Source of the DNA: Deuterostichococcus epilithicus
Taxonomy: Eukaryota > Chlorophyta > Trebouxiophyceae > Prasiolales > Stichococcaceae
Direction: 5' to 3'
DNA: 64,000 nt
NCBI GenBank assembly: GCA_033439295.1
Contig: JAVTLE010000017.1
Coordinates: forward strand, 1,302,001-1,366,000
The position numbers and the translations under genes were made by a program. Of this stretch, positions 5,802 to 63,800 are shown piece after piece (positions within the stretch are counted from its first letter, which is position 1; each line of letters begins with the position of its first letter). The notes under the pieces are model-generated. The model saw only the letters and a list, made by a program, of their open reading frames with translations, was not told the DNA's origin and searched no databases.

Positions 5802-8800
5802 TCACGCCCGCAGCGGCAGGGAGGGGAACGTGAAGCTGCCGCGGCTGCTGGTCCCGCTGCCGCTGCCGGCCGGCAGCTGCACGCCGCCGCCGGGCGACGC
5901 CGGCGGTGGGCCGTCGGCAGGCTGCCGGGCCGCCGCGCTGGCAGCCACCGGGGCGCCGACANCTGCCGAGGCCCCTCGGGCGGCCAGCGCCGCCGCCGTC
6001 GCCGCTGCCGAGCCTGCTGTCGGCCCCGCCGCCGGCGGCGGGTGTTCGCCCCACAGGGCCTCCTCCTCTATGCCGCCGAGCGTCGGCAGCCGCACCGCGG
6101 CCACCTGGTCCGAGATGTTTTTGGCGGCTGCGGGAAGGACAGGGCGGCTTCAGAGAGCTACGTGATGTCCGAGTTGACCGGTAGACGGCTCGATGCGAAA
6201 GTGCGGCGCCTCATTTGATGTTCAGCGTCCGCCCACTGCCGCACGCCGCACGCTGTGCTCTGGGTGCACTCAGTCCAGCCGAGCGACAGCTCGGTGTTGC
6301 GTTGCAAAGTCAGCAGCGTGCACTGCATACATGGCTGGCAAGCGCGGCTTGAAACACCCAGGACACCCAGTCCCTGGAGGACCATCGTGGGTAGGGGCGG
6401 CTCGCACATGTCAGCGATCAAGATGCCTGCAGCGTCGCAGGTGGCGCAGCTGTGGCAAGAGCACGCGGCATGAGAGGCTCGCTCCACCCCCAGCACCCGT
6501 GTGACAACCCCCCAAGCGACCAACCTGCGTATGCTGTGGCCACACGGATTTATACCCACACGTCACACTCTGGGAGGTGGACGGCGCGCACCCTCGGCGG
6601 CGGCCACGACGGCGGCGTCGCAGGTGGCGGCGACATCGGCCCGGACGCGCGCCGACTCCGACGCCAGCATGTCCTGCGTCGCGGCGATGCCCCCCCTGCA
6701 GCGCGCGACGCTCGTGTCCAACCGCGCGCGCCACACGTGCAGCTCCTGCGGCCGGGGAACGGAGGCGCAGGAATGTCAGGGTTTTGATCGGCTGATTCGT
6801 CAGTGAAAGCTCGGACGGAGGGCCCCATTCCCGTCGGGGCGACACCAGCGTTGCCGGGCCCCAGGGGCGGCGGCGTGGCTGTCGCAGCGTCATGCCTCCG
6901 AAAAATGACACCAGCACTGAGCCCACGGCCGCGCGCACAGCCACAAGATCTGTTCAGCTGCCCTGAGCTGGTCAGCCGAAGCTGGCGCGCGTGCGAATCT
7001 GCGCAGCGCCAGTGCAGGCCGATGCCGCGCAGCGCTGCCTGATGCGCAGCATGGTTGAACGGGTGCGCCCGGGAATCGGCAGGCAGACAGGCGAGCGACT
7101 GAAGCGCAGGGAGCAGCACCCCAGGTTCGAGCACGAGGCAAACTCAGAGCTGAAAACAAGTGTCAGCGCGCACCCGTATGAGAACATCCACCCGCTCCTC
7201 CATGATCTTGTTGTCCTCTGCCATTTCCTGCGGAAAAAAGGGTTTAGGGTTTGAGAAAGTTCAGACCCGTCTTGCGAACAAATCTGCCCGGCAAGCTGCC
7301 CTGGTGCATCGGTTGTAGAGGCTCTGTCGTGTCAGGGCGCCCGCAGAGCGTCGACCGCTGTGACGTCGCCAACGTATGCTTGACCTTAGTATTTGAGAGG
7401 CTTGGCGGCACGGCAGCGGCCGAGGGGGGCGTCCTCTTACAACCACCATTCTTGCACAGTCACTCACTGAGCAGCAGCAAGGTTTTCCGAACGTGCGCTG
7501 CCTTTCTTTAGGCGGCGCACCTGGAGGTCTTTCGAGTCCAGCACCCCAGCGTAGCCGCCAAACAGGCCGCTGGCGGGCGCCCGGCCGCCCGCCTCGCCTG
7601 CACGGGAGGGCGGCACTACGTCGGCAGCCACCAGCAAGACTGGGACATGGAGAATGGAAGACTCGAGCGGCACTCCAGTCTGGCTGCCACCAGACCTGAC
7701 ACACAATGCCCCCCCAGGAGATGGCATCTCGCCGAAACCTGGACGACGCGGCAGGAAAGCGAGGGATAGCCACTCATGTCCTGTGGACTGACGGTTCCCG
7801 GCTCACATCGCGGCGCTCACACCCCGTCATGCACCGGACCGAGGTGTGCAAGTGGCTGCATGCAGCAACGCAAGCGTCGTGGGCAGGCCCCTCACGGCCA
7901 GCAGCAGCAGCGGCAGCTACGGTGGTGGCAGCAGCAGCCGCGGAAGCGCCGCTGCCGCGCTGGAGGTGCCAAGGCATGCGGCGTCAGCAGGGTCCGGCGT
8001 CGCACCTTGAGGGTTTGACGACTGTTGAAAGACATTTCTCAGGAGCCTCCCTGGTGCGCTGAGCCGCTGGGGGCGCTGCTGCTGCTGCTGCCGTCGGCAT
8101 TGGCGCGGCTGGGCGACGGCGGAAAGCACCGGCACACCGTGTCGCATCACAACAAGCCCGGGGCTAGGTTGTGAACAGGTCTAGGGCTGGACTTGCCTTG
8201 GTGCGCAGAGCCGCTGGTGGTGCTGCTGCCGTCAGAGTCCGCGCGTCCCGGCGCCGCCGCCGCCGCCGCCGCCGAGGGACTGCCCAAGCCCCCGGGCGGC
8301 CGGATCCCGGAGCGCCTTGCCGCTCTCCGCTCCTGCCGCGCCAGGTGCCGCTCCCGCTGCTCCCGCTGGTACGAGTCGTGCTCCTGCGGTGCCCGATCGG
8401 AGGTCCATGGGACGGAGTCCTGAAGACTGAGGACTGTCATCGTGGGGTTTTCAGGTTGTCGACTGGCGCCGCGGGCGCCGCTCTCGCTGCTTCCGCTGCT
8501 GTGACTCACGCTCCTGCGACTCGAATATAAACCTCCGTGATGTGAGAGGGAAATGCAACAGGAGTGCTATTTGACTGATTTTGACTGATCAGGAATCCTA
8601 GATACTCACCTCGCACAGCGCCATGCTGCTCCACCAACGCCCGCGCTGTGGTGCGCCTCGCCCGGTGACGTTTTGGCATTCGCATCACACCATGTCACAT
8701 TTGAGTTTGGGGCGTTTTCCTGCTCACCTGGTACAGCGCCATGCGCTCCGCCAGCGCCCCATCCTGCACCCCGCGGTGGACCTCCCCTGGCGGCGGCGCC

Positions 8801-10982: not shown

Positions 10983-11605
10983 ATGCCTCAGGCGGGCGCG
11001 AAGCAGATGTCGTGCGAGCGGCTGCTGAAGTCTCTCGAGGACTGCCAGCGGAAGCATCCGCGACAGAAGGCGCGCACTTGCTCAGACTCCTTCAGGCCAT
11101 GCCTAGAGACTCTGCCCCGGGTTGTTGATGCAGGTCTCCCCATGCTGGATACCTAAGCTTGTGAAGCGTCTGTTTCTCGTACAGGAGGTTTGCAGGCACC
11201 TGGAAACCGGCGCGGCATGGTGCCTCCTGGCATCGGTCTGTCCAGCAGAAGGTGTGGCTGAGTGGACCATACTGGAAACACATGGCAGTGTTGCGTTCAC
11301 GTTACTCAGATGTCCTTCAGGTTGTGCTATGTAACAAGACGACGATGCAGGGTCCTGCTCAGAGCATGGCCTCAGCATGACCTGCAGCGCGCAGGGCGGG
11401 ACCACATGGCGGTCGTGCCTGACGCCCTGAGTGGTGTCGTGCAGTCGAAGACATGGAAGCGTGCATTGGCAAGCGCCGCAGCTCCGGGTTGGCGCCGGCG
11501 GCTGTGCCGCAGCAGTGCCGCGCTGCCGCGGCGCGCCTCGAGGACTGCCTGGAGAGACAACAGCGGCTGCAGGAGGTCGTGTCTGGCAGGGGCAATGCTG
11601 AGTGA
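10983..11605 (+). CDS. Quadruple CX9C (CHCH-type) protein, 3 exons, 104 aa
   Basis: Exons 10983-11069, 11185-11251 and 11445-11605 join to 105 codons. In the spliced protein the cysteines fall at 11/21, 32/42, 48/58 and 76/86, four exact CX9C spacings. Segments such as SCERLLKSLEDC and CRHLETGAAWC resemble plant twin-CX9C proteins. CX9C proteins are usually oxidised in the mitochondrial intermembrane space by the Mia40/Erv1 relay and act in respiratory-chain assembly. No N-terminal presequence is seen, as expected for Mia40 clients. Intron 1 must use a GC donor (AAG|GCGCGC at 11070); reading on instead adds an extra Cys and ends at a stop before exon 2. The regular spacing across two splice joints is strong internal support. 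The exact orthologue is not assigned. Confidence 0.82.
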
Positions 11606-15627: not shown

Positions 15628-18600
15628 TCAAATCAGGATCTTGTACTTGATGTTGCTGGGCACCCGGTTGATGACGACCCGGCCATCATATGATAGTGAC
15701 GCAAAAACCCACGGGTCCACGCTGCTCCACTCCACGCCTGCGCACAGGTTTGCAGCCGACCAGCTCAGAGGGTGTGCATCGTATGTGATGCTGCCGCCGC
15801 CGGCGCTGCGCAGCAAACATCTCAATGCTAGTCGGCCTGGTACCACAAAATAAGTCAATTCAGAACGGCATGCAGCATAGAATCTCCTAAACAAGTCGCA
15901 GATGCTGAGCTCACAGCCAGCAACCAGGCACTTGATGCCCCCTGCACAGCAAAGTAACATCCCTACTTCGTCCTCTTGGTCACTACATCCGTAAGGCACC
16001 ATACACGATCACCCCTGCGGTCGCCGACGGTGTGCCCCTTGGCGTCCGGATGTTTGCAAGAACTAATCGTCACTGATCAGATTACATTGCACGTTCCATC
16101 CCAGCCGGTGCAGAGGGTTTGGAGTGACGCACCGTACACGCTCTCCTCGTGGTCGCCGATGGTGTGCACCTTTCCGTCCGGCGGCGGCCGCCCCGGCGGC
16201 GGTGGCGGCACCGGCGCCCCCGCCGCCGCCGCCGCTCGCACGCTCGGCAGGTAGTGCAGCCCCACGGAAGTGTCCGCCGCCGAGGTGAGCACCAGCGCGT
16301 CATGCGCCGGGTTGTGGCGCACCCGCCAGGCCCACCGCGTGTGGCCGCCCAGTGCCAGCAGCGGCCCCTGCTCGGCGCGCCTGCGGCCCAGGAGTGGGTT
16401 AGGGTTGATCATGTATCAAGCGACCCCTCTTACTAAACCCTCAGCCATTGGGTACCCTCAGCCATTGGGTACCTTGCAAAATTCCATGCACGGTCATTGT
16501 GCCTGCGGCGGGCCATTGCTGGCCGCTCAAAATTCACGATCCAGCATACTGGCAACGGGCCAGCGGGCTGCGGCCGCCTGCGCCGCCCGCAAGTGACATC
16601 TGTGGCGACCTCAGGCTGCCCAGGTTCCGACATGTTCATGCTGTATGCTGTTCACACTTGACCTGCAGGCTCATGGACGGCGACTCGCTCGAGGTCCCAA
16701 GAGCGCAGGCTCTAGCCGTCACCGAACACAGTCACCATGCATGGCGACCTTTGCAGGGTTCCCTGTATACTACGAGTACTGATGTCTGCTTAGGTATACA
16801 CAAGTATGGAGTACGGACTCTGTGACAAGGGACACGCCTGAGGTCCCACACGCGCAGCTTCTGGTCGTCGCCCACCGTGGACAGCACGTGCGGCGTCTGG
16901 GACGCCCAGTCGACGTCGCGCAGCGGCTGCGCCGAGGCAGCCCGCACGCCGCCGCACTGCTTCATCGCCCGCACATCCCACAGCTGCGACGCGAGTGAGC
17001 AAGCGAGGTGGACAAATATTACTGACTTTCCTTTTCAAACCTTTAATCCTCGTCAGCAGTGGAGCGGCTCCCGCGTGCGCGCGACAAGACGCACAGCTCA
17101 GCTGAGCAGGTGACGCAGCTCCCTTCCAGGCGTGCACCGCAGCAGCGCCTGAAGAGCGTTCAGTTGCTGAACTGTTCACTGTGCAGTTCGAGACTATAGT
17201 CTACATGCAGTTGGGTGCGGGGACGGGGCATGTCGAGGAAACCTGAAGGCTGCCGCCGCCGACGGTGGCCAGGCGGGTGCCATCGTTGGGGTCCCAGGCG
17301 CCGGCAAAGAAGGGTCCGCCTTCCTGTGCTTCCACCTTCCCCAGCTCCTGTGCTCGCGCCACAAATTGCAACGATCAGTGCCCACAAGGCACAGGAAGTC
17401 ACCATCGACGGATGACAACACACAGCCGGAGCCTCGCTCGATTGTGCCACCCCTGCTTCCAGCTTTTCCAGCGCCTATGCTCTCGGCAGTGCTATAGTTG
17501 TGCATCTGCAAAGGGCATCGGAGCATCTCCAGACCGATGGCTGCACCTCGACATCCGACGAACTTTCGCCCACCTCTCTTCCACCTTCCCTCGGGATTTC
17601 TGCGCCCGCGGCGGCGCTGGACGCGCGGGTTCCCTTCAGACAAAGCCGAAACGTTGCGCACTGCGCAATGACTATACAGTAGAAAACTCCTCCTACCTCG
17701 GCCCGTCCCTCGCCCAGCGCCCAGCTGCGCAGGTGCGCGTCATCGAGCGTCGCCGCGGCGCCGCCCTCGCGCCATAGCGCCGCCCGGATCGTGCCTGCGT
17801 GGCCTCCGAGCTCGGCTCGCGCCTCCAGCTTGCCTGCGTCCGGGTCGGTGCGCCACAGGGTGGCTCCGTACGTCCCCCCTGCAACGCATCGGGGCAGCTA
17901 GGTGAGCACTGGGCACCTGTCGGCCGATGTGTCCCCTGCAGTGTCGTACCCCCTCCGCACGCCAGGTCAGCAGCAGCAAATGTCGACAAGACTCTGGGAC
18001 GGCCGAGACAGTGTCTACCTCCTTGCTGCATTGTGCAGGACATGGTTGCCAACATGGCTAGCGTGTGCAAAGGGCAAGATCCGGCCGCGCCGCAGCATTT
18101 GGCGCATGGCGGGGAGGAAGCCCGAGAGGCGCCTCGCGGTTGTGCACGGAGATGGGACGGCAAGTGCCTTCTCACGGCGAAGCGTGACACGCAGCAGCGA
18201 GGCTCGGCCCTAGAAGATTATATAAAGGTTAAAATAACGATTGAATTTATTCAGACGAGGCCTAAAAGTCCAAAAAGCGGCAAGCCCACCGTCGTTGTGC
18301 ACGGTGATGAGCAGGCGCGCGTCCTCGGGGCTGGGCGCTATGCCCCACACCTCCGGCTTGTGCCAGTAGCTGGCCACGCGCCGCAGCGTGTCTGTGTCCG
18401 CGTCGAATTCCAGCACCTCGACCTGTTCAGGATGTAGGAGAGATGATGAAGTGCGAGGGAGGATGCCAGAAGCTAACCATGCATCGTGACGTGACCGTGT
18501 CCGCGTCAAATTAAAGAAGCACCACCCACAGCAGCATTAGACAAGGTGGGGCACGGATATATGAGAGCGCGTGACTACTCCGTGCCTGCAGCGCCATCCG

Positions 18601-19692: not shown

Positions 19693-22600
19693 ATGTCCGG
19701 CTCAGCCAACCCATTTGCGGAGAGGATCAGGCAGCTGCGAGCTGCAGGCCAGGATGGTGCGGCCAACATCTTGGAGCGGAGTTTGGCGGCCCAGGCTGGC
19801 CATGGGGCTGCTCAGGGCGCAGGAGCCGGCGCAGCAGGCCCACATCGAGCAGCAGTAGACGCAGGAGGCGTCGACGGCGGTGCTGGTCCGTCGCTGGTGC
19901 GATGCATTTGATTCGAACTTGAAAAGGCAGAGTTGCGAGCTGTCAAGGACAGCCCTCTGCACCGTACATGTCATCACTGCAATGCCGCTGCAGTCTCCTC
20001 GCTGATCTCATCGTCTCGGTCCTGCTAGGCGGCCGGCAGCTTTGTCGCTGCCGATGCATTCTGGAAGGGTAGCTACTGCGCGCATACCGGCACCTGGACA
20101 TTATCAGTATTGGAAGCCTGCTTGCCTACTTGCTGCTTACTCAAGCAAGAGTCGACACCAGATTTTGACATGCTTTGTCCTCGCTCTGGCAGGGCTGGGC
20201 GGCGAGCCTTGCCAATGCAGCGGCAGGAGCGGTGTCGGCGGGAATCAATGCACTCTCCCAGTCGGGCAGTGCCGCCCGGCTGGCGCAGCGGCATGCAGCG
20301 GACCAAGCCCGCCGGCTGCAAAAGCAGCAGAAGAAGGATGTGAGCGGACTTTGTGCATCAACATGAATTCGTTTCTTGTGTACAGTCCAGGCCTCACAGG
20401 CTAGCGTCTTGTGTGTTGCCAACATGTTGTCCATTTCCAAGCCTAGTCTGCCGACCTGTACGACAGCGCTGTGAGGTTCGCATGCAGGCATGCAGACGTG
20501 CAGGCATTCACCACGGCATCATGCGACTTGTTGATGTCAATCGTTTTGTCCATGAGCTGGTTCTTTGCCAACCTTGCGGCCGGACGGAGATCGACGATGC
20601 ACTGCCCGACCTTGCAGGCAAAGAGGGCTCAGGCGGACGCGCGCTCGCAAGCTGCGCTGGCAGCGGCGCGCGCCGGCGGCAATGCCCGGGCGCAGGCTGC
20701 GGCTGCGGCGGCTGTGGCGGGCCGGGGTGCTGGCGCCGAGGAGGAGCCCGCCGAGCGGGACCGGCTACTGGACGACGCAGCGGCGCATGGCGAGGACGAC
20801 GACGAGGACATCTACTCCACCTACAAGTGCGTATTTTTCCTGAAATTACCAAGGAAGGGCGCGGAACGGTCGAGCACAGGGTCCTTGAAACCGTGATGAA
20901 TACCTGCTGCACGGCAGTACCATGGCCCACGGTGCAGTTGCCGGCGAACAGATTTGCCTCGCCAAGTGCGCCATCGAGAATGTGTTCCAGGGGTCACAGA
21001 AGATGGAGAAGGTGACGGAAAGGACGATGGCAAGGAATGTCTCGTAAAATATATGGGCTTCGTTTGTGGGAAATATGATTCATGTTGGGCTGGACCCAGC
21101 ACACGTACAGTTTGATCACAGGTGTATCAAACCTTCAAATGGACAAACGCCTGCCTGATGTGTGGCCAGCGGCGGCGCAGCAGATGCGGTGCAGGCCTTT
21201 TACCGCACCCTCAGTGGCTTCACACTGAAGCTGGCCGTGTGTGTTTACACATGTCCAACTGATATTTCAACCCGATACCTTCATTGCCATGCCGCCCAAT
21301 CATGGAGCTATTGGCCAACATGGCTCATATTCGTGCGACAGGCCAACTGCAGGACGACATGGCGCTCCCGGACCCGATCGCGGGGTTGCTCTGTCCGGAA
21401 TGCTCAGTCGTGTTTTCCTTGTATCGTCCAATCTCATTTCATCTTGTGCGCAGGCCGGCCAAGCTGCAGGAGGGCAAGGTGCACCCGGACCCGATCGTCG
21501 AGACGCTCAGCCTGGCGTCGGTCGTGCCTCCCGACCCCGACTACCAGCACAGCCTGCAGGTGAGACCTCGTGGGGTCTAGATGTTTGAGGCTGTCAATGC
21601 GTGCGCCATGAAACGTGTGGTTGTGAGGGAGGTCGTCGGAGTGGTGCAGGCCGATGATATTGCCACTCATCGAATCTGCATGCAGGGGCGCCTGCATACG
21701 GCCGGCCGCTGAACAGCCATGCTCCTGCCTCTGATCAGCGGTCGGGAAATTCACAAGTTGCACTCTCTTGCAGTCACGCTGCACATTCTTGTTTGCAAGC
21801 CGCCGCTGCAGGGCTGCGTGCCGCGTGGGGCGCTGTCGTCACTGCAGCTGGACATCTGCCTGCTTGCTGTTTAACAAGTTACGATACCATTGCACAGGGC
21901 TGCGTGCGGCGCGGGGAGCTGTCGTCACTGCAGCTGGAGACCGTCGTGTACGCCAACATGCGCTTCAATGGGCCGCTGCTGCCCAACGGTGTGTTCTTGA
22001 GTTGTTTCCAAGTCCTGGCGGCTGCCTGTGCTGGGTGCGGCGCGTGATGCGCATGCGAAAACTCTGTTTTGAGGTCCTGTTGTCATGTCTAGGTCTTCTG
22101 ACTCGTGCTGGAACAGCAGGATCTAAGTTTCACACTGCTGGTGTGTGTTGCAGGCACCCGGCCGGGCTTCTTCCTGGGTGAGCGTCATGCAGCGCCGTCT
22201 TGCCAGTGTCACTGTCCAATGTGCCGGTCATGTGCCTGCCTGAGGCCTGCCGGGGCATGCACACTGCAGTTACAGGACCTACATCCGCCAACACAGCTGG
22301 CCGATACATCTGCCTCTCCTTCGCCTGAGCAGTCACTGCTGAGCAGTCACGCTGCAGACGCAGAGGAAAGCAGCAACAATGCTTCGCCTCTGCATGCTCG
22401 CCCCTCTGCATGCTTGTGGTTCGATGCTTGCAAGCGTGGCTCCACATCATTCGCACAGGCGACGGCGCGGGCGTGGGCAAGGGCCGCCAGATTGCGGCGC
22501 TCATCCGTGACTTCTGGGAAAACGGCGGCCGCCGTGCCATCTGGGTGTCAGTATCCAACGACCTGCGCCTTGACGCAAAGCGCGACCTGGAAGACGTCAA

Positions 22601-25600
22601 GGCCACCCACATCGACATCTTCCCTAAGGTAAGCCATTCATAGGCTCCTTTCTGCCTTCGTGATCTCGCTCTTAAAAATTCAATGACGATGCACAGACGC
22701 CAAGCAAGAGAAAATTTGGTCTGCTGCAGTTTTAGTGGAAAACTTTGAAAATTTACTCTCGGACTCCCGACTCAGGACCCCTGCTGTAAACGGGTTTGCA
22801 GGGTGCCGAGCTCATGCATCCCGCCCCGCCAGCCAGCGCATGTGCTGCCGCATCCCACCCTGCCGACCAGCGCATGCGCTCAACCTGTGCATTCCGAACA
22901 TCTCGGATCTATTTTTCGATCCTGGGCATCCTTTTGTTACTGCAGGACAATAAGAACTCGCTGCCAAAGGGGGTGCTGTCGGATCACGGGTTCCAGGACG
23001 GCGTCCTCTTCTGCACCTGTGAGTCCTTCTCCGAACGGTTGAGTATGTGCAGAACTCCCACGTGATCCCTGATCTGCTGCGCCGCGTCGCATCTGCGCCG
23101 TCCGGCAGCAGCCAGGCAGCCCTTTGCCGTGCAGCGGCAGCAGCGGCAGCAGCAGCAGCGGCAGCAAGGCCCATACCGTTAGTTGGTGGGTGCGAGAGGT
23201 CCCTTTGCGACCGTTGGTCTGTGCGGCCGCAGATTCGCTGCTCATCGCCGGCTCGAAGAAGCCGCCAAAAAAGTCGGCCAGGGCGACGTACGATGCCGAG
23301 GTGCGCCCTGTTCTATACTTTATCCATGGCTCATGTCCATCCCATATCAGGCAGTGTGACGCCAAGGTGCGTCATGCACGACCTTGCTTGATGTTTCTGC
23401 AAACGACATGTGAGCTGGCGATCCCGGCATGCAGCTGGCAGTCTGCGCAGTCTGCTGCTGTCTGTGTGGCCAGTGGCTGCGGCTCCAGACCGATCACGCC
23501 AGCCTGAAAGTGCCTGCCACCCAATGAGCCTCCAGAGGGCTCAAGCAAAATCCCCTCACCGTTATTGCATCAACATGCACAGGCAAGCGGCAACAAGAGC
23601 TGGGCAGCGCGACGTTGCGCAGACGCAATGAGGAGCATTGTTTAGTGTTGGTGATGTTGACAATGAAAATCATCATGCAGGCAGCGCCAGTGGAGCGGCG
23701 CGATGTGTTTCGACCGCAATCAAGCGAAGCCCGAATGGACATGACGTCATTATCCTTCTGACTTCCCACGAATGGTTTCAACCTCCACGTAGGCGGCCGA
23801 GGTGGCGCCGGGCGGCGCGATGCCGCGCGGCCGCAACCAGGTGGAGCCCGAACTGGACGTGTCGCCCGGGTCCCGGCTGCACCAGTTCATCGAGTGGCTG
23901 AGCGAGGACGGCGGCGACTGCATGATCGTGCTTGACGGTGCGTGCCGCCGGATGGACTGCCTGCACAGCTAGGGGCCGGCTTGCCGGTGGCATTTGCCAG
24001 TGCGCAGTGCACGCATGCAGCGGGGCTGCTCTGGCTGGGCATGCCAATTGCGACTGGCATCTACTCACCAGGCTGGAGTTCTGCGTGACACCTCTGCACC
24101 ATCCCTCTTCCCACAGGCTTTCCAGGGAGGCCTGCATCGGACTCCCCGCTGCACGCCCCAGACTGGCACCACAAGGCCATGAGGCAGATCCTGTTCCTGC
24201 CCACCACGACTCAAATCATCAAATGATGTCCCCCTTGCCGCAGAGTGCCACAAGGCCAAGAACCTCATCGTGAAGGCCGGCGAGCCGACGGCGACGGGGC
24301 TGGCCGTCAAGACGCTGCAGGCGCGCCTGCCGCAGGCGCGCGTGCTGTACTCCTCCGCCACCGGCGCCTCCGAGCCCAACAACCTGGCCTACATGACGCG
24401 CCTCGGCACCTTCGGCTACGAGAACATGGTGCGATGGTCGTGCACAAGGTGTATGGGAGGAGAGTGTCGCAGATCTGGGATTCGAGCGGCAGGCCGGCCC
24501 CGCTGGGTGGGGCGGCTGGCAGTCGCTGGAGGCTGGCCCTCCGCTCAACTCCTGTTGTTGGGACGCTGGCAAGTGCAGCACCAGGTTGCTCTGGTAACAC
24601 AGAATCTTCCGCACACTGCACACCCCTTAACACGATGTATGACACAAAGGATTTCCCCTGCAGGGGAAGATGGTGGAGCACCTCAACAAGGCGGGCCTCG
24701 GCTCACTGGAGCTGTTCAGCATGGTGCGCTATTAATGCCTCCGGGGTGTAATGTTGTGATAACTTTGTTCGCAAAGCAATGTGCCATGAGCAACAGCCTT
24801 GCCAGCTTGATGGATGCATAGGAAGGCTCCAGGCCGGAGCGCTCCCATGTCTGCGTGTGCCAACGAAGTGTTCAAGTCAGGTGTGGCTCACAGACTCATG
24901 CGAGGCGCTTTGCACGTCGCCGGCATGCTTCGCCCCACTGTACCCTGTGGGTTACCCTGTGGGTAAGAATTCACTCGGACCATCACCTGGCACCTGGAAC
25001 ACGATCTCAGTTGCTTGTGTGCGCCCGGAGCAGGGTCTCAAGGCGACGGGCACGTACCTGAGCCGCGCGCTGAGCTACAATGGCGCCGAATTCAGCATCG
25101 CCAAGGTCCATATCGACCCGCAGTTCCAGGTGCGCCGCCCGTCCCGTGTGACGGCCGCGCCGTCCTCTGCACAAAGGCCCTCGCACCGTGTGTTTCGCAT
25201 CCCGGTGCACGGACCCTGGCCGAGAGTCAACCGCTGCAGGGCACGCATGTCCACTTGCAGCACACAGACTCAGTGGACTTTCTTGGCTGGGGTACGTGCC
25301 ACACCCAACCTCCATCTGTCAACATCGTCAAGGTTTCGTTCCTTTCGTACACATGTTCGTTCCCCCATCCAGGTGATGTACGACCGGGCCACAGAGGCAT
25401 GGGCGCTGGTGTTCTCCGTCGTGGCGCAGCTGCAGTCGCGCGGCGCATGCACAAAGGCCTTCTCGCGCCTCATGTGGGCCGCCTTCTGCCGCTTCTTCCG
25501 CCAGATGCTCATCGCCTCCAAGGTGGGGTGTTCCCGCTCGACCCACCCCGCAGGAACCTTCACTGCCGAAAATCTATGTGTGACCGCCACACAAGGTTGT

Positions 25601-45000: not shown

Positions 45001-46087
45001 CGTCGCGCGCGCCGCAGTACCGGCGCTTTGGCACCGCCGCCATGCTGCTCAGCCTCGTGCCGGTGGGTGACGGCAGGCGTCTGGCTGAGTCTGCATGTCC
45101 TGAGACAGCTGGTTTCGTGAGACTCTTCGCCACTCAGGTCAGCTGCAGCGTCGACTTCTGCTCTGGATATCCACGGATGCGAGATGTCGAGCGAGCACAT
45201 CTGGCCCAAACTGCTGACAGCCGCCTGAACGATGGCAGCACGCAGGGTGCGCCACGAACGGTTTGCGGGTGGTGGCTTGGGGTCTGAGCGTCATTCTCGC
45301 CGCGGCTCAGGTCTGTTGGCGGCCTCGTTTCGTTCCCAGCTCGTCCACATCTCGCTTTACGTGCGTTGCAACCTGACGCAGGTGGTGGGGTGGGGCCTGA
45401 GCGTCATTTCGGCGGCAGGCGCAGCTCTCTGGGCGGCAGAACTGGAGGGCGCCGGCGGCCGCGGCCCGCCCGCCAAACTGTACCTGGGTGCGCCGTCTTT
45501 GCACCGCGCACCCACAGTGCCTTCCATTGCTTGCACGATGACATTCAGCCAGCCTGGAGGGCTTTGGCGCCGCGGCCCGCCCGCCCAGCAGGGTCTGGGT
45601 GCGTGACCTATGTGCCGCATGATGCGCGTTCCACATGCGCAATGCGGCTCGGTACAGGAGCCATTCCCAGTGCCGGACTGCTGGCTTTGCACGTGGCGTG
45701 CCGAAGCGGCCGCTGGCTGCGCGACATGCAGCCTGGGCCTGCTGGGCGCTTTCACAAATGGGACAGGCTGCGCCCGCCTTGAACCTTGGCCTGAGCGACG
45801 CGAGGTAGCAAAGGATCAGGGGGGGGGCAAGGAAGCCGCCGNCAGCAGACGACCAGACGAGGGCCGCAGAGGACAGCCGACTCAAGGGTGCCAGCACAGG
45901 CAGCAAAGGACCAGAAGGGGAACGCAGAGGCCCTCAGGCCCCCGCCTCGCAGAGAGCAGCTCGTGCGGGCACGCTTGGCGCAGGCCCCCGGTTTGGCCCA
46001 CATTACACAGCACAGGCGGCGGCGAACGCGCTATCAGTGGATGCACTCACTGGGACTCAATGTTCGTGCAGGGGGCACCAAGACTCA
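42080..46087 (+). CDS. EI24/LDS (CysZ-like) multi-pass membrane protein, about 9 exons
   Basis: Exons 42080-42187, 42380-42468, 42833-42946, 43466-43631, 44138-44223, 44493-44565, 44958-45062 and one starting at 45382 close in phase. A last exon from about 45898 is tentative. Hydrophobic stretches include YAAVSAATLALAFSLLF, SWPLFLLLQF, LTFSAPLLLFWP and LLSLVPVVGWGLSVISAAGA, separated by a charged insert near RDELQAAAAARRRARAAK. The pattern NGYATGVSHH, then GISDRDEQEAVAASR, QYRRFGTAAMLLSLVP and AALWAAELE matches fungal/plant proteins of the EI24 / outer-spore-wall LDS-RRT8 group, integral membrane proteins with ER or lipid-droplet roles. The C-terminus is uncertain; an ambiguous base lies at 45842. 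Introns hold copies of exon 3 (42731), exon 8 start (45269) and exon 8 end (about 45560). Confidence 0.72.
42731..42774 (+). repeat. Degenerate copy of EI24-like exon 3, with both splice signals
   Basis: 40 of 44 bases match 42824-42867 (polypyrimidine, acceptor, start of exon 3). One change turns CAGATAG into CAGGTAG, creating a donor, so the copy is itself a potential exon reading LLAHTWLAWQ. Confidence 0.88.
45269..45310 (+). repeat. Degenerate copy of EI24-like exon 8 start
   Basis: In the block GGTGGTGG through GAGCGTCATT, 3 of about 31 bases differ from exon 8 (45382 on); offset about 114 bp. The frame stays open (VVAWGLSVILAA against VVGWGLSVISAA). Confidence 0.82.
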
Positions 46088-50202: not shown

Positions 50203-51790
50203 GCGGGAAGGTCTGCAGCAGGAGACAGGGGCAAACTCAGTCAAAACTATCTTCGCTCATTAGCTTTGGCCCAGCCGCGGGCAGTGTCGATGTATGCAAG
50301 CGCATTTGGCCGTGACGGAAGGGCAGGCCAGCCGGGTCACACGCCAGGTGCGGCGTTGCAACCCCGGAAAGGTGACCAAGTTGTACCTCGAAGAGAGGGC
50401 TCGATGGGCGATCCGGCGGCCGGCGACCGGTGCAATGCTGCCTGGGATGAAGATGAGCGAGATGAGAGGCGGAGCACCGTCGCGGCAAGCTGTGTGCGCG
50501 TGTAAAGCAGTGTGGTAGGCTAATGAGTGCGTAAGGCCAAAAGGCTTTTTCGAGCCTTCACGTGAGCGGAATCTATTGACTGCGATTTTTCACAGCTTTC
50601 CCGAATCCGGAGTCTCCAAGACAGCGGCGACTGGCGCTCCTGAACAGGCCCTGCTCCTGCTCAATGCGAGCACCCAGCAGACGCAAACTCTTCGCAGTAT
50701 TATGCTGATATTTTTTATTAAAGCTCGTTTTAACAGTGTCTTCCGTGCGTGCTTGGCTGCCACCGCTGCCCCGTCACACATATTGTTTTCCAGACACTTG
50801 CCCGGCGTGAGGAGCAGTGAGGTGAGGGTTTAAACATCGCCGCTCTCGCCTGGCTTCTGGAAACGCATTACAATCAAGGACACATGCCAGCCAGAGATGC
50901 CAGTGTAGCCTTGCAAACCTTGCTGGCCGGTGCCGGCGCACCCTCCTTGGTTTAACGCATGCTATGAATGGCACCACGTCATATGTCTGCAATGTAATGC
51001 ACTGCAGCGCGACCTTAACCAGGAGCTGGTACCTGTTCTGAGGCCCTGCGGAGCACTTCCAGCGTCGGTGTGCGGGTGCGCGGCAGCAACGGCGGTGACC
51101 GGCTAATTCCTGACAGCAACGACAAAGGCCTCTTCCACAGCAGCTGCGGCAGGGCTTGCGGAGCCGCCCGCCGGCCTTGCCGCGCCTGGGAGCGGCGACC
51201 CGGCCTCGGCGCATTGCAGCCTGCTGTCACGTCCACACCTGCAAAGCGGTCTGGCACAGCAGCGACCGCCAGCTGCGGCACCTGCAGAAAGCAGCCGCCT
51301 GAGCGTGCGGCTGGCGCATTAGCCACGTGCGGCGGCGACGTCGCTCGCCGCTGGTCCGGCGAGCGGATCGAGCGGCGGCACGCTGCACTACCCAGGAGTC
51401 GCCCCGCTGGACAGAAAGTGCGTAACTGCAGCGGTCGGTCCAGAAGCTTCCGAACTATGTCCTGCGACACATGCGTGGGCAGGAAACGGTGACGCACAAC
51501 GCTGCTAGCAGTGCTGCACACAATACGCCGCAGTCCCCCGCTTGCATGCTCCTCTAAACAATGGGAGCTGCAGCAACGCCAACGACAGGCTGCATGGGGC
51601 TGCTTTCTCGGCGGACGCAGCGGCGCCAACCGGGAGCAACACTGTCGTCTTGACGAACGGTAGCGAAACCGTCACTGCTGGCGTGGCGATGTGGCATTGC
51701 TGGGCGCGGCGCTCAGCCGCGTTGGCGGCATGCTCGGCGTGGCTGGCGGCGCCGGCTGGTCCTCTGCATCCTCTCGAAGCCTCCTTCCTC
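50203..51790. other. Divergent interval upstream of the USP gene
   Basis: Contains the promoters of the mitochondrial-type gene (-) and the deubiquitinase (+). A 204-codon minus-strand ORF (51015-51629) is Arg/Ala/Pro rich with no domain and is probably chance. The copy of USP exon 1 at 51699 falls here; the deubiquitinase frame also stays open upstream to an ATG at 51542. Confidence 0.45.
51699..51752 (+). repeat. Degenerate copy of part of USP exon 1
   Basis: 49 of 54 bases match 51868-51921, without gaps, 169 bp upstream. It covers the segment encoding [12 protein letters not shown]. Confidence 0.9.
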
Positions 51791-54700
51791 ATGACTGAAA
51801 CTCGTCGTACTTCTGCTTCTGACACTGCTGCTTCCGATCTGCGGCGCAGGCGCGGCAAGGTGGAGGCGCTGGGCGCGGCGCTGAGCCGCGTTGGCGGCAT
51901 ACTCGGCATGGGCGGCGGCGCAAGCCGGGACCGCCTGCTGCAGGCGCCGCTGCCGGAGGGCGAGCGCTACTTCGGCCTGGAGAATTTCGGCAACACCTGC
52001 TACGCAAACTCCGTGCTGCAGGTGGGGCTGCCTCAGTGGTTCATGGCTTAGGATTTAGCACTTGCTAACCCTGTGCTGCAGGTTGGCAGCCCCGCTGTGG
52101 CTTCCTTGGGTCAGCTGTGCTGCAGGCTTTCTGGCCAGCCCCGCGCTCTGCAAGGCGGCAACTGAGGCGAGACACCAAGAAGCCCATGCCACTGCACCGT
52201 TGACCCTGCCTGAAGCCCTCATCACAACGCACTCACCACGGCACCGTCGCTTGGGTTTCAGCCCCGCACACATGCCGTAGTGCCCGCCTGCCTTGGAAGC
52301 CAGCTCTGGCTCGAATGCAAGCCCTGCGGAGGTTCTCAGCAGGTTTCAGCAGCTGTGACGCGCCTTTCGAAAGCCTGGATCCGCTGAGCGCATGCTCGGG
52401 CGCACGCACGTGCAGGGGCTGTACTCCTGCAGGCCTTTCAGGCAGCGGCTGCTGGAGTATGCGGCGGCCGGCGGCGGCGGCAGGGCGCCGGAGGACAACA
52501 TACTGACCTGCCTCGCAGAGCTCTTCCTGCAGGTCAGTGTTTAGGGCTCAGAGTGTCACAGACCCCAGAACAGCATTTGAGTCATTGTCGAGCTTCACCT
52601 GTCGTGTTGCGCAGTGCTCCTCTGCAGCTGTTGTGCTGCCCTGGCCTGGCCAGCCGCCGGCTCACGCTCGCCCAGGCTCGGTGGCCGCCGCTCTGCGTGG
52701 TGTGCTGTATGCCAGGCTGGTCTGGCGTGTTGCACAGAGCTTTTATGCACTCTCCAACGGCATGCCTCCAATTGTAGCTGCATATTCGTAGTCCAGAGAT
52801 CGCAGCCAGCAGAGATAGGAGTGGGCATGATGTTTGCAGCTGCCCCCACCGGGGCGCTGTCTCGTGCGCCGCAGGTCAGCAGCTTGCAGAAATGGACGGG
52901 GTTGTCGAGTGAGCCATGACGAAGAGGGTTTCCTGACGGGACTGCGATACCTTCCTGCAGATCAGCAGCCAGCGGAAGCGGACTGGGGTGGTGTCGCCAA
53001 AACGCTTCATCCAGCGCCTCAAACGCGACCGGGAGCAATTCCGCTCCTACGATGAGCACCAGGTGACTGGTTCGCACCCCCTGGAAACCCAGCGTCAGGC
53101 AGCAGAGAGGGTTGCTGTGGAGTTTGAGGCTTTTGGAGCTCCATGAGGTCGGCCTCCCCTGCCTGACCCTCCCTTGGTGTTTGGGGCCTGCTGGTTTGGG
53201 CACCCTGCCCAAGGCTGCACCGGCCACCAGTCCCTGGCGGACGTTCTAGCATGATGCGTTTCAAATAATGGCACCTGGACGGCACCTGGATGGCTCTCAA
53301 ACGGCCAACGGTCCCGTATTGTCATAGGCTATGTACAACGCACTCTTCGCTCTTGCAGCCTGACTGCGCGCGCCGCATTCGGTACACAATGATGTGTGGC
53401 ACAGATGCAGGCAGGGTGGACCTAGCCGATAGCCACCTTGCGAACTCCTGATGGTCAAACCTTGTTTATTCGTGCAGGATGCGCACGAGCTGCTGCTGGA
53501 CCTCATCAACAGCGTCAGCGACCTGCTGGAGGCGGAGGAGAAGGCGCGTGGCGGAAGCGGCGGCGCCAGGCTGCAGAAGGGCGTCACCGTTGCCAGGCCC
53601 GCCGCTTCCGCCGGCGACGCACCACTGCCGCCGATCCGCACCTGGGTGCACGACCTGTTCCAGGCGAGGATCTGGGCAGTGCACAGTGACAAGGGTCTGT
53701 TCCCGTGACATCTGGCTATGCCCATGTGCCAAGATGCCAGGCGGCACCGATGCCCACTGTACTGGGCTGCCAGCCCAACTGTGCATGGAGGTGCGGAATG
53801 CATTCCTTGTCACATCTGCTGCCCACAGACCGACTCATTGCACTCTGCTGGAACCACCGGCTTGTGAGGTTTGTGATTGCTGATTTGCAATGCAAAGCCT
53901 CTGAAAAGATCCCATCACCTCAAACCCTCATTGCTGCAGCAGGGGCGGGGGTCACCTGAGACACTGCGCTGGGCTGCCAGACACCTCTGCGTGACCATGC
54001 ACTCGTGGCAGAAGACTCCAAGCAGCAGCAATCTACTGCTCGGAATTCCTTTTGGTAGCAGGGGGCGGGAGGTGCACAAGTGATGCAGTGCCCGGGCTGC
54101 GAGCCGACGACAGGCAACCACAGACCCTGAAACACCACTAAACCCCAGCACTGAAAGCGTGCACGCCTGCCGCGGCAGGGACGGGAGGTGCATGAGACGC
54201 AGTGCCTGGGCTGCGAGACGGTGACGCGGAACGAGGTGGTCTTCTACCACCTCAGCCTGGCCATCGCGCAGCACAGCTCCCTCACCCAGTGCCTGCGCCA
54301 GTTCAGGTGGGTGCGCTGCATTGCACGGCGTCCGCCCCCGGCAGCTGGCAGTGGCTGCTGCTGCGGGGTGCCCACGCCCAAGCTGTGGCAGTCCCGCCGC
54401 ATCGGCGAGACTGCAGCAAACGCAGCGCGTATGCGGGGCAGAGGCCGTAGTCAGCACCCCACAGGAAGGCGGGAATGCTGCCGGCGCATGCCGGTAGCCC
54501 CATCGGTGGCAGCCCTCGCCCCGCTTGCCATCCCAGGGCACAGCTGCCCTTGGGGCAGCCACGTTCCCGCTGATGCTGTCTGATGACAGCCTGGGGGCAA
54601 CTGAGGTGGACGTGCTCACGGGTTGCAAAGGTTTCCTTCTCGACGATGCGTGCAGTGCCTCCAAACCTCAATCGCAATGGTGTAGTAGGGCTGAATTTAA

Positions 54701-56709
54701 GCATGTTGCAGAGGAAGTAATATCCTGCAGCGCGTGCGGCACCCTACCAGGGGGCGCAGAAATGGACGGAAACTGGTTTTTGCGGCCGCATTCAGCTGTT
54801 CCTTAGTCCATTCTGTTCCTCATCTGCAACTTCGTCGACACAGCTGGAGGGAAGGAGGAGTTTGTGCGCTGCGCAGAAGTGGCCACGCACTCATTGCCGA
54901 GTCATTTCCGACAACCATGTGTCGTCGCTGGCCTTTGCAGTGAGGTGGATACGCTGAAGGGGGACGAGAAGTTCTTCTGCAACGCCTGCGGCGCATACCA
55001 GGAGGCTCAGAAGCGGACCCGGCTGTCGGCGCTACCAGACGTGCTGCTGCTGCACCTCAACCGCTTCAAGTACACCACGCACATGGACCGGTGTGCCTTC
55101 TCTCCCCAGAATGAGAAGTGAAACTGCAACATGACATACACCACCCACTTACACCGGTGTGTGCCTTGACGTCTACCAAGAGGACCGGGAAGGCTCAGAC
55201 CAGTCTACCCTGAAACCCCCTGCTTCAGAGGCAGGCGCTGCCCGATGGCCTGCCGCTGCACCTCACGTCGTGCCAGTGCCCTTCGGCTCCCATCTCCCTG
55301 CGAGATCGCTACTCGTACGAACACAATCTCTCGCTCACCCACTGAAAAAGGAGGCGCATCGCTGCCGGACGCCGTTTTGCTGCACCTAGTCCGATTCTGG
55401 GTTTATTGTTCCCTTCAAGACCGCTTGGGGAAAACCTGAGTGTCACCTTGAAGTGGATCCATCGTCCCCCGGCCGCAGGGACGGCCATTTGCGGGCGGTG
55501 CGCACCAAGCTCGTGTGCTGCATGGCATCCGCCTTCGAGCCGGTGTTTGGGCCCGAACCTGTCGTCTTGTCTGAGACACCCTGCTGCCACCGCAGGGGCG
55601 GCAGCTCTGGGAGGCGCGCTGCATGCTCATCTACTGCAAGGTGTTCCACTGTCGAGCTGAAGCCGGGTCCCGCCTCTGCCTTGATGTGACCTCCTCTTTG
55701 TTCTCACCTGCAGGGACGGCTATGTGCGGGTGGTGCGCTCGAAGTTGATGTACCGCGTGGTGTTCCCTTTCGAGCTGAAGCTGGGAAGCACGTCTGCATC
55801 CGATGGCCCTGACGGCGCCGACGCGGCCTACTCACTGTTTGCCGTCATCGTGCACGTCGGCAGCGGCCTCGACCATGGTGCGCCATTCCCCCAGACCCAA
55901 CACAACCCCACAGACGACAGAACACCGAGAAATGGGTTCGCTGGACGGCGCCGACCCGGCGTGCCAGATCTGTTTTGTCATCGTGCGTGTTGGCAGCGGC
56001 CTGGACCGTAATGCACCTGGAAGGCATCAGCAAAATGCTCCACGAGGCACCTGAAGGCAGAGGCGGGCCAGGCATGCGGTCCTTTCCAGAGCTGCCAGAT
56101 CAGTGGCAACGGCAAAGCCGGCAGAGGTGTGGCTGCGCTACGGGGATGACAGCGTGGCGCCGAGCGGGTCATGTCTCCTCGTCCCTGCTTGTGCTTGGCT
56201 CGCAAAACCTGCCTGCCAATCCCTGCCATGCATGTGTGTGCAGGGCACTATGTGGCGCTTGTGAAGTCGGCGGACGTGTGGCTGCTGTATGAGGACGACT
56301 CCGTGGAACCCGTGGCCGAGTCCACCGTGCAGCAGACCTTTGGTGCCGCCTCCGACTTTTTGGTGAGATACTAGACTCAGTTGTCAACGGAGTTTGCACT
56401 GCATGTACGTGAATTGGGCAGAAACTCTTGGGCGGAACCTGGTCAGCTGGTCGTTTGAGCACATATCAAAGATGAAGTAGGAGCTGGCGTCTGGCGGCTC
56501 GGCCGATTCCCTCATGCATTCCTGTACATGTTCGAGACAGGCCGCTGAACGCCAGCATCAGGTTTGACCTGGCTCACTGCTGTCTGTCACCGCAGAACCA
56601 TTCGGGACACGGCTACATTTTGATGTACCAGCGGCAGCGGGACGGTGGCGACAGTGGCGCGACGACGGGCGAGGCGGCATCGGCGCCTGGCTCGCCGATG
56701 TCCACATGA
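51791..56709 (+). CDS. UBP3/4-like: Ubiquitin-specific protease, USP12/USP46/UBP3-4 type, 9 exons, 436 aa
   Basis: Exons 51791-52021, 52416-52532, 52961-53062, 53478-53663, 54179-54306, 54941-55090, 55714-55877, 56244-56362 and 56596-56709 close to 437 codons. Catalytic Cys70 lies in [17 protein letters not shown], His361 in GHYVALVK and Asp377 in LLYEDDSV, the expected triad. The zinc ribbon is C221/C224 (CLGC) with C268/C271 (CNAC). [20 protein letters not shown] and [11 protein letters not shown] identify the USP12/46 subgroup, cysteine proteases that remove ubiquitin and in animals are activated by the WD40 protein UAF1. In plants UBP3/UBP4 are nuclear and needed for pollen. Intron 4 has a GC donor (CAG|GCGAGG at 53664). 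The N-terminal Met is uncertain. Introns contain copies of exons 5 and 7. Confidence 0.92.
54061..54120 (+). repeat. Degenerate copy of USP exon 5 start
   Basis: Roughly 47 of 56 aligned bases match exon 5 (54179 on) with two small gaps; it includes GCGGGAGGTGCA and GGGCTGCGAG from the zinc-ribbon coding region. A fainter second copy is at about 53950. Confidence 0.82.
55479..55540 (+). repeat. Degenerate copy of USP exon 7 start
   Basis: 46 of 62 bases match 55714-55775, with an acceptor CAG in front as in the exon. The frame remains open ([13 protein letters not shown] against [13 protein letters not shown]). Confidence 0.82.
55596..55670 (+). repeat. Second, more decayed copy of USP exon 7 start
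   Basis: Begins after an acceptor-like CGCAG and retains AAGGTGTTCCACT and TCGAGCTGAAGC like the exon. Together with 55479 and the exon it makes three copies in 240 bp. Confidence 0.65.
55944..56007 (+). repeat. Degenerate copy of USP exon 7 end
   Basis: 48 of 64 bases match 55811-55874, 133 bp downstream. The frame is open ([20 protein letters not shown] against [20 protein letters not shown]). Confidence 0.85.
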
Positions 56710-60877: not shown

Positions 60878-63800
60878 ATGACGCAGTCGCCAGCGAGGTC
60901 GCTGCTGCTTGGATCGAGGTTGGAGGAGCTGCTGCAGAAGCCTGAGTCCCGCGGCGTGATCGTCGTGCCGCAGGATAGTACCGTCGACTCCGCCCTGCAG
61001 GTAGGGAGAGCAAGCGCCCAGTGTCGTTAGGGCTCTACCAACCAGATCACCTCGATGCAAGTTGCTTGTGGTGGAAACTTGATACTGCACAAGCATCTCA
61101 TGGACTTTCGCAGGTTCTGGCGGAGCACCGCATCCTGTCCGCGCCCGTGACGGCGGACGGCGAGGTCCTGGGCTTTGTAGATATCCGCGACATCCTGGCG
61201 GCGTTCCTGAAAGGTCAGTCTCAGCGGCACTGCATGCAGCGTGTCTTTGCAGCGCTGCCAAGGTTCAACCAGACAATTTTTAAGTGCTCTTCAGCACATT
61301 TGCACCCGGGAATGAGGTCAGCAGTGGGCGCTCCGCAGCTGGCGTGTGCGCATCTGCGTGTGCACAGTCAGCGCCCCTGGCGTCAGTGGATGCAGCAAGG
61401 ATGCTGGCAGGGGATCTAAAGACGGAACAACACTTTGCCCGGCGGCTGCTGCGCGACTTCTTCGCGAGCTCGGGCGAACTCACCTGCCCCGCTCGGTGCA
61501 GCCTCCAGTCAGCGTGCAGCTTGCGCCAGGAGCGTCTCAGATCTCGTTGCCTCCCACCCTTCTGTCATCCCCCTGCGTGCAGACGCGGACGTGGAGCAGC
61601 TGAAGGCCAGCAAGATGCTGGCGAAGATGCGGATGCTGGAGGAGGGTGGCGCGGCTTTTGCGCGCAAGTCGCTGCGGGACCTGGGCGACCACGGCAGCGA
61701 CGGTGAGCGGTGGTCGGAGTGCTTTGCGTGCCATTCCTCGAGGAGCGCGTTGGTGGGGCAAGTAGTATCTTCTGGGCTGGACGGCAAAGAAACTTTCGCA
61801 TGCGTTCACCTCAACAGGGGACAGCAGCTCCCGCAGATGTAGCATCCCGCCGGTCGTGTACCGCACCTGCCGTGCTGGCCGCATCGCGCACGGCCCTTGA
61901 GCGAGACGGCACATGGCAACGCGTCTGTCGTATAAAGCCGGGCAGGAGCCTGAGCAGAGAGCTCAGCAGGCGGAACGGGAGGCCAGATCAGTCCGTCGGC
62001 TGTGATGCGCAGGCGGCTTCCTGCACGCGAACCGCACCAAGTCGCTCAGCCTGCTGGAGCTCATCTACGATGGCTTCCTCGCGCCGCGAGAGTCCCGCAA
62101 GTGAGTAATCCTTCAATCTCGCCGAGAGGACAATCACTCTGTCATCTATACCGGCCCGCTGACCGGTCGTGTCGAGCGATGCACGGCGCCATCCAGTGCT
62201 TGTGTGCCTCAGCCTGCGGACCGGCCGCCCTGCGCGCCCTGCCGCAGCCGCCCAGCCGGCTTGTGGACCAGCGNCCAGCGCCAGCCCCGCCGTGATGCAG
62301 CATGGCGCGCGAGCGCCGCTCCCCGCGTGTCCGCACCATGCCGTGCTCCCCGCGCACCGACGGGAGCCCAGAGGTGGAGGAGGCGGGTCCGTGCCTGCGC
62401 AGGGGCATGCACGGCGGCGGCAGGTCGTCAAAGATCGTGCACCGGCTGGCGGTGTTCAACAAAGCAGGGGACGTAGAGGCCGTCGTGTCGCAGTCGGACG
62501 TCATCAGGTGGGTGCGGGTGCGCCGTGAGGGGCCCCGCGTGCGTCCATACATGCTTGGCGGCGTGCGAGAGGGGGGGTGGGGCACGTGCAGGNTGGGGAG
62601 TGCTGCCGGCGCGGCACCCCCCCAGCACACTGCGCGTGTCTGGGGCGCGGCGCGCGCCAACGGCGGCGTCCCCTCCGTGCCGACGAGGGGGTGAGCGTGC
62701 GGTGCGTGACGCACGGCATGGGCCCGCTGCTGCAGGTACCTGGCAGCGCGCACAGGCGAGCTGGGGCCGCTGGCAGAGAAGACCACCAAGGAGCTGGGGT
62801 GGGCACAGCGGGAGGTGCGCATCCAGGTTGCTCCAAACCAGGAAGTTCTCAAAGTTCACAGCTCAAAATTTGTGAAGGGTTCTCAAGGTGCGCTTGGGAT
62901 GGGGATACAAGATTCTCCAGGGCCCAGGATGCATGCGGGCTCACGCCTGCCTGCCAGGATGCGCGCCCAGGCAGAGTGTGTCGGCAGGGGCTGCCGTCAT
63001 GCCCCTGTGGCAGGCCGCCGCAGCAGCTGCCGTCCAACCGGGTGGCACGGCCTGCGGCCAGCCCGTGTATCACGCAGCCCCGGTCGCTGCCGCTCCGGCG
63101 CCGGCGCCACGATGTATACTCAGCCTGATGATGAAGGCAGTCATCTGTGTGACAGACCGCTTTGGGTGCTGAGCACAGCGCCACACGTGCCGGCCTTCGA
63201 GGGTATGCTCAGTATGTTAACAGCGGGCATTCTGTCCATTGTCGTCCGTTCCGACCTACTTCCCCTGCTCCACTTGTTGCAGGTGCTGTGCACGGCTCCG
63301 GATGTGTCGGCCTTCGAGGCCATGCTCAGCATGTCGGAAAAGGGCATCTCGGCGCTGGCGGTCGTGGCTGACAGCGGCAAGTTGATAGGCAACTTCTCGC
63401 TGTCCGAGCTGCGGACCATCATGGCCGACCACTTCGGGTCGCTGGCGCTGCCGGTGAGCATATTCAACTTTTGGCCAGATGGAGATGAGAGCGCACCCAG
63501 TGCTCCCTGCCTTCTTGTGTTGTATCCTTCTTTTTCTCGGAGCCGCGCGCTGCCATGGCGGAGAATCCTCGCCAGCTGGCGCGGACGGTGAGCGCAAAGG
63601 GGTTTCGATGGGTCATCCACACAGCATGAATCATCCATACTGTCACCAGCCGCACTTCGTGCTGTGCAGCTGCAACCATCTTGGCGTCCAGTCGCACACT
63701 CCTGCATGGTCGGCTTGGTTGGGCACTATGTCGAAGCCTTCCTGGCTGATGTGAGCCTGCGAGTCGCCACATATGCTGCTGCCCGCGCATGGCTGTGGGT

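Follow-up and report, generated by a model that had tools for sequence, protein, structure and literature searches.

The stretch considered here is a 64,000-nucleotide part of a contig (C15:1302001-1366000; hereafter, the window) of the alga Deuterostichococcus epilithicus, whose genome comprises 46.8 Mb in 21 contigs, with a guanine-cytosine (GC) content of about 62% in this setting. The gene models of the window include, by reading of their translations, strawberry notch, a ubiquitin hydrolase, histones H3 and H2B, thioredoxin, a WD-repeat-like protein and a CBS-domain-like protein; the names strawberry notch and ubiquitin hydrolase are the two backed by homologue searches. Introns in this window contain what are termed here echoes, that is, decayed copies of the nearest part of the neighbouring exon, called start echoes when they lie upstream of that exon and end echoes when they lie downstream. 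The existence of such copies had been claimed in a sequence-only reading of the window. This claim is confirmed: exon-edge echoes in introns are real, and the signal is stronger than that reading could show.

The gene models were obtained with our own gene finder, a hidden Markov model trained on the window and 20 fetched stretches, and they contain errors. In its last round, the predicted introns had [C/T]GCAG acceptors, GTGCG or GTGAG donors and a median length of 196 nucleotides (nt). Repeats in the window were found by self-blastn; the score thresholds vary between at least 28 and at least 42 and are stated with each count. Among 485 predicted introns, at a score of at least 30, the end of the intron's own previous exon was matched in 3.1% and the start of its own next exon in 4.7%. 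Among the controls, 9,457 comparisons with edges of other genes gave about 0.09%, 4,702 with edges of the same gene that do not adjoin the intron gave 0.06-0.09%, and the reverse complement gave 0.4% and 0%, so that introns match their flanking exons well above the level of control edges (about 0.1%). When 40-nt windows were slid over 490 introns and their exon edges, the signal was maximal at the last and first 40 exon nucleotides (9/490 and 16/490, with controls of 1/2,857 and 1/2,850); exon windows lying more than 60 nt from the edge gave 0/490, and those starting in the intron 1-4/490.

The distances between copies tell the same local story. Direct pairs scoring at least 40 in the window number 19 at offsets of 30-499 base pairs (bp), 1 at 500-1000, 1 at 1000-2000 and 3 beyond, with a peak at 60-240 bp made up almost entirely of exon edges, while no inverted pair of score at least 36 with arm centres within 1 kb was found by window self-blastn. 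In 20 other 10-kb stretches, at a score of at least 42, there were 46 hits at 50-300 bp (two repeat clusters, L017 and L014, account for 14), 3 at 300-500, 15 at 500-1000, 11 at 1000-2000 and 7 at 2000-5000 bp, and again no inverted pairs below 300 bp. Pairs without a predicted exon copy amounted to 10, of which 2-3 survive reading, as against 51 exon-intron pairs; most of the 10 are echo-echo pairs or exons missed by the model. This one-by-one reading did not extend to 28 further pairs, in which either both copies fall on predicted exons or one does and the other lies where no gene is predicted. The loci cited in the sequence-only reading were recovered at 21809 (41/44), 36162 (42/46), 42731 (40/44), 37645 (39/50), 51677-51752 (63/76, containing the cited 51699), 55475 (50/66), 63165 (43/53) and 55944/55811 (53/67 columns, gapped). 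The echoes of the window are the following (echo coordinates, strand, source, identity or score, offset in bp).

8049..8082, minus strand, echo of the exon end 8196-8229 of a minus-strand gene (88%, offset 147)
8463..8518, minus strand, echo of the exon start 8333-8388 (77%, offset 130)
8605..8642, minus strand, echo of the exon end 8723-8759 (87%, offset 118)
15996..16049, minus strand, echo of the exon end 16129-16181 of the WD-repeat-like gene (81%, offset 133)
21341..21380, plus strand, echo of the exon start 21457-21497 of the strawberry notch gene (85%, offset 116; exon supported by homologues)
21809..21852, plus strand, echo of the exon start 21895-21938 of the strawberry notch gene (93%, offset 86; flanks unrelated; exon supported by homologues)
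23695..23746, plus strand, weaker echo of the exon start region 23812-23864 (score 37, offset 117; weak homologue match of the exon, E 0.11)
36162..36207, plus strand, echo of the exon end 36021-36066 of the strawberry notch gene (91%, offset 141; exon supported by homologues; the spacer 36067-36161 matches only itself in the genome)
37645..37694, plus strand, echo of the exon start 37747-37796 (78%, offset 102; homologues match the downstream copy only)
42731..42774, plus strand, echo of the exon start 42824-42867 (91%, offset 93)
43157..43208, plus strand, weaker echo of the exon end part 42879-42931 (score 37, offset 278)
45265..45323, plus strand, echo of the exon start 45378-45437 (78%, offset 113)
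45554..45603, plus strand, echo of the exon end 45442-45492 (80%, offset 112)
51677..51752, plus strand, echo of the exon start 51846-51921 of the ubiquitin hydrolase gene (83%, offset 169; exon without homologue match; the spacer 51753-51845 matches only itself)
54062..54106, plus strand, echo of the exon start 54178-54220 of the ubiquitin hydrolase gene (82%, offset 116; exon supported by homologues)
55475..55540, plus strand, first upstream echo of the exon start 55710-55775 of the ubiquitin hydrolase gene (76%, offset 235; exon supported by homologues)
55588..55667, plus strand, second upstream echo of the same ubiquitin hydrolase exon start, 55705-55785 (74%, offset 117)
55944..56007, plus strand, echo of the exon end 55811-55874 of the ubiquitin hydrolase gene (79%, offset 133; exon supported by homologues)
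56115..56157, plus strand, weaker echo of the exon start part 56264-56306, in the same intron as the 55944 echo (score 36, offset 149; exon supported by homologues)
63165..63217, plus strand, echo of the exon start 63282-63334 of the CBS-domain-like gene (81%, offset 117)

The ubiquitin hydrolase exon at 55714 thus has two upstream echoes and one downstream, and for exon 45378-45492 the end echo begins, in exon coordinates, 4 nt from where the start echo ends. Some of the 19 local pairs of score at least 40 are not echoes: that at 8779/8860 is doubtful, and that at 33444, described below, is a plain tandem duplication. Exons were checked against homologous proteins in two genes, and the exon copy was clearly matched at 7 of the 10 exons queried, with no match at 51846 and weak ones at 23812 and 39042. 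For the ubiquitin hydrolase, an unnamed transcript from the mmetsp collection ranks first (57%), with a land plant next, an unnamed protein third and, after these, Myrmecia, Trebouxia and Coccomyxa; strawberry notch matches a land plant first and then volvocine and other chlorophyte algae, including Myrmecia and Symbiochloris. The genome was accordingly taken for that of a chlorophyte green alga, perhaps a trebouxiophyte. Elsewhere in the window, histone H3-like and H2B-like models (11406-12819 and 13660-15086) adjoin on opposite strands, the H2B-like one with several introns, and a plain 77-bp tandem duplication at 33444-33594 (89%, gap 4), which is not an echo, lies inside a predicted intron. 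Isolated single N bases occur in the otherwise finished sequence at 5962, 27256-27263, 45842, 62274 and 62593.

Echoes are unevenly distributed. The window holds 23 oriented entries (score at least 32) for 132 introns of at least 100 nt, or 18 pairs in an alternative tally (score at least 40, gap at least 20), and a stretch of the same contig, L026 (C15:800001-810000), holds 11 entries for 20 introns. Contig C15 is far denser, with 34 entries for 152 introns at these two places, than the 22 other stretches, which have 13 entries. Since 14 of 23 random 10-kb stretches lack a catalogued entry, the earlier wording that introns carry such copies "systematically" is too strong; in one of these 14 stretches, L020, an exon-edge pair is nevertheless present that had escaped the catalogue. 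No pair scoring at least 38 was obtained at eight further kinase loci of 3 kb each. With a strict threshold, an echo accompanies 3-5% of the exon edges sampled, and a rough extrapolation from a small sample (24 entries in 230 kb) gives about 5,000 echoes genome-wide, or about 2,800 without L026. A correlation between locus GC content and echo number is not established (rho -0.35 and -0.39, p 0.10 and 0.06).

Across 419 internal exons of 60-300 nt, all 26 echoes with a score of at least 36 are partial and none covers a whole exon: the 14 upstream echoes take only the first part of the exon, ending at 24-58% of its length, and the 12 downstream ones are confined to its last part, with a start at 43-82% (the half-exon rule). 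The lack of whole-exon echoes among the 26 may be due to the fact that a complete copy would be spliced in. Echo blocks measure 25-82 bp, spacers 26-173 bp and offsets 59-235 bp, the middle half of the latter being about 100-133. In 17/22 exon-end rows and 23/28 exon-start rows (some pairs being in both), the block has its splice-side edge no more than 20 nt away from the junction. Among the 41 rows within 21 nt of the junction, 29 reach it or cross it by up to 17 nt and 12 stop short, and the crossing blocks mostly include the GCAG or GT signal, in agreement with the earlier remark that the copies usually carry a splice site.

The spacers were studied in a set of 46 pairs. It was derived from 69 local pairs, of which 49 were left after dropping gaps below 20 and the loci L017 and L014, and 46 after manual removal of three simple or coding repeats; a few doubtful pairs stay among them (window 8779, L016 9295, L012 7180). 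Of the two loci dropped, L017 shows degenerate internal repeats within a predicted coding region (6462-7748) and L014 a repeat array where no gene is predicted (8294-8865). In none of the 46 pairs was similarity found between the spacer and the outer flanks, the means being equal to those of shuffled pairings, and this holds in 13 pairs of at least 88% identity, even at 93-95%. No source of the spacers was found within 900 bp on either side, and each of three spacers from this set that were searched as possible repeated elements matched only itself. Plain tandem duplication or slippage, as they stand, are excluded by these spacers: the local tandem duplication and replication slippage proposed earlier find no support here, given that the spacer is unrelated to either side even in the youngest copies. 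A modified form, in which a whole unit of exon edge and intron was duplicated in tandem and the duplicated intron part was then lost by selection against a competing splice site, would account naturally for the direct orientation and the half-exon rule, and near-contiguous duplications of about 70-120 bp do exist in the genome, such as that at window 33444-33594. Nevertheless, it is unlikely, because the spacers of the 46 pairs, including the 13 most similar ones, keep no residual flank similarity and each event would need a deletion spanning all the copied intron.

The exonic source of the copies might also suggest that fragments of spliced messenger RNA or complementary DNA were inserted into introns, and 22 of 25 matches between an intron and its own coding sequence indeed lie within 75 nt of that intron's own junction. 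However, in none of the 25 does the match extend more than 6 nt past an exon-exon junction, and 9-14 nt of intron sequence are present in several copies, which already contradicts a complementary DNA source and makes this explanation very improbable. The copying of a spliced junction, a reading first suggested by the locus 21809, was rejected for the same lack of crossing beyond 6 nt.

A more serious alternative, although still on the doubtful side, is that half an exon is copied, by template switching or as a re-ligated excised exon strand, and placed 25-170 nt away in an otherwise unchanged intron. No filler would be needed, as the spacers resemble neither the flanks nor the neighbourhood, the flanks do not resemble the neighbourhood either, and the three searched spacers are single-copy; start echoes often begin at GCAG-like sequence, a possible microhomology, and branch-like motifs are about as frequent at echoes as at random sites. 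This leaves the half-exon rule unexplained in 26 of 26 echoes, given that free insertion should also place second halves upstream and first halves downstream, and template switching should yield inverted copies too, of which there are none below 300 bp. In addition, the sequence upstream of the echoes resembles a former acceptor: the AG-free zone there has a median of 24 nt at 24 start echoes and 26 nt at real acceptors, as against 10 nt at cryptic GCAG sites (p 0.0008) and 14 nt at random sites (p 0.04). Because this AG-poor zone resembles a former intron end, it is modestly favoured that the echo, not the exon copy, is the piece still joined to the old intron.

Once formed, echoes appear to drift freely. 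Identity falls continuously from about 95 to 72%, and in 33 of the 46 pairs, diverging by 5-28%, there are 241 substitutions and 28 indels, 24 of the latter not multiples of three. Mismatches are evenly spread within the blocks and nearly even over codon positions (66/498, 74/499 and 101/499); silent change in the exon can be a source of the third-position excess. This evenness, together with the out-of-frame indels, indicates that echoes decay like noncoding sequence, and the identity series can be taken as an age gradient, as had been proposed. The junction edge of the echo is enriched in splice signals, while at its free edge no second, complementary splice site was found. This disposes of mini-exons, and the suggested reservoir of alternative exons finds no support either, as coding constraint is also lacking. 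Gene conversion refreshing old duplicates was discarded on account of the even spread of mismatches. Functional echoes, acting as decoy splice sites or regulatory copies and kept exon-like by selection, could explain the sharp block edges, the enriched splice signals and the greater likeness of two echoes in L012 to each other than of one of them to its exon; this is quite unlikely in view of the identity continuum, the mismatches even within blocks and over codon positions, the free edge without a second splice site and the fact that most introns have no detected echo. Similarly, the few single N bases of the window might point to an assembly artefact, an idea that is hardly credible for copies with 5-28% divergence, far more substitutions than indels and a presence on several contigs. 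Introns with an echo are about 135 nt longer than those without (355 vs 219 and 348.5 vs 213 nt), as expected from the intron lengthening considered in the sequence-only reading.

From the anatomy, orientation, half-exon rule, unrelated spacers, neutral-like decay and longer introns, all of them shown by the data, we infer a staggered cut, a fill-in and a filler join, with the spacer, not the echo, as the inserted part. Tentatively, and at somewhat less than even chances, each echo is regarded as what remains of a single break at an exon edge and its repair. Opposite strands would be cut, one of them within the exon and the other at the splice junction or a few nucleotides beyond it, which would leave long overhangs of 30-80 nt; both ends would be filled in, doubling the overhang stretch, and would then be joined via unrelated filler of about 25-170 nt, which would come to lie between the copies. 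Only events that left a usable splice site beside a complete exon would survive. Of the two copies, the one continuous with the remainder of the exon would stay coding, the one on the old intron would become intron and decay neutrally, and the intron would gain about 120 nt per event. Such a break fits the direct orientation, the unrelated spacer, the half-exon rule, the retained splice signal and the added intron length.

Several observations weigh against this staggered-break origin. Intron-only duplications, which should be harmless, are nearly absent, and this is not explained by staggered breaks; neither do the latter give any reason for the limit of about 17 nt on the reach of the copies into the intron. 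The confinement of breaks to exons is therefore an added assumption, and an exon-specific source of breaks must be supposed. With looser score cut-offs, the half-exon rule is broken by a few rows, for instance by L015 8140-8538 (a 399-nt exon with a downstream match at 27-48%, score 38) and by window 8728-8913 (upstream match at 58-81%, score 32). The resemblance to a former acceptor is of moderate strength: a second score is intermediate (p 0.08 against random sites; below real ones, p 0.02), and the branch-point-like motif stands at 0.21 at echoes, 0.22 at random, 0.20 at cryptic and 0.34 at real sites. In L012 (4953-4999, 5006-5049 and 5114-5160), an exon edge is accompanied by two echoes 93% alike, the second being 79% like the exon; one echo of this intron thus seems to be a copy of the other.

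Start and end echoes share an intron in 6 cases, with 0.9 expected (score at least 28), an excess that clustering and intron length may explain. The nesting of a whole exon into its own copy in one event was also considered and rejected: the 93% start echo at 21809 has no visible partner half in the downstream intron, and the co-occurrence of start and end echoes within genes is weak (p 0.05-0.10). In 8 of 9 exons picked by hand, the echo halves lie almost end to end (median gap p 0.17; no overlap p 0.05), p reaching 0.007 only with a cut-off chosen after seeing the data.

Regarding the source of exon-confined breaks, one rather doubtful candidate is that spliced RNA re-pairs with its gene over the exons only, forming hybrids that end at the junctions, where nucleases would cut at or just beyond them; repair of the long overhangs would then double the half of the exon that lies nearest. 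Niu (2007; PMC1863416) proposed as an advantage of introns that RNA freed of them pairs less with the gene; the pairing left over exons would then, by inference, be a candidate reason for exon-confined damage, and the abstract of that work describes no duplications. The G skew expected of R-loops gave a mixed result, being higher at exons with start echoes (p 0.013) and not at those with end echoes (p 0.78). If breakage at exon hybrids were true, mature RNA would steadily write exon-edge copies into introns, lengthening the introns of particular genes.

How introns grow and where their sequence originates are poorly understood. By the rough extrapolation above, this genome would offer a few thousand exon-to-intron events of known source, direction and relative age, so that the idea of intron growth by staggered breaks becomes directly testable, and it raises the question of why duplication events respect exon boundaries. 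There is also a practical warning for gene finding, as our own models put false exons on several echoes.

In the AGGT-duplication route, a new intron arises and the copies abut its opposite splice sites. In the alga, by contrast, existing introns grow and the copies lie near their own splice site; intron lengths, echo positions and the half-exon rule show neither echoes against the opposite splice site nor intron lengths equal to the offset, and the distinction from this route made in the sequence-only reading therefore stands. Tandem exon duplication and mutually exclusive exons also place exon copies beside an exon. The alga differs in having half exons with one splice site and no coding constraint, and copies with both splice sites and coding constraint, as alternative exons would have, were not found. 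Intron gain by tandem genomic duplication (PMC4974935) resembles the echoes in the local duplication of exon sequence and in the hiding of the extra copy by splicing. Introners (PMC9860276) are likewise insertions tolerated because they are spliced out; these are repeated elements, some with target duplications of 3-9 bp, whereas the three searched spacers of the alga are single-copy and its doubled stretches far longer. No published report of exon-edge echoes came up in full-text searches of an open-licence library, and passages of a paper on a Coccomyxa genome (PMC3446292) show nothing of this kind. The nearest published process found is the staggered-break origin of repeats in new introns of Daphnia, where internal direct repeats are ascribed to repeated staggered double-strand breaks, with a proposed lengthening of introns and inserted sequence mostly of unknown source (PMC4202315). 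The likeness extends to direct repeats flanking unrelated sequence, as in the 46 pairs. In Daphnia, those repeats that are shared with an adjacent exon measure 4-12 bp and are placed at the opposite end of the new intron (PMC4202315). The blocks of the alga, by contrast, measure 25-82 bp (shorter ones falling below the detection thresholds), lie beside the same splice site of existing introns and undergo a neutral-like decay.

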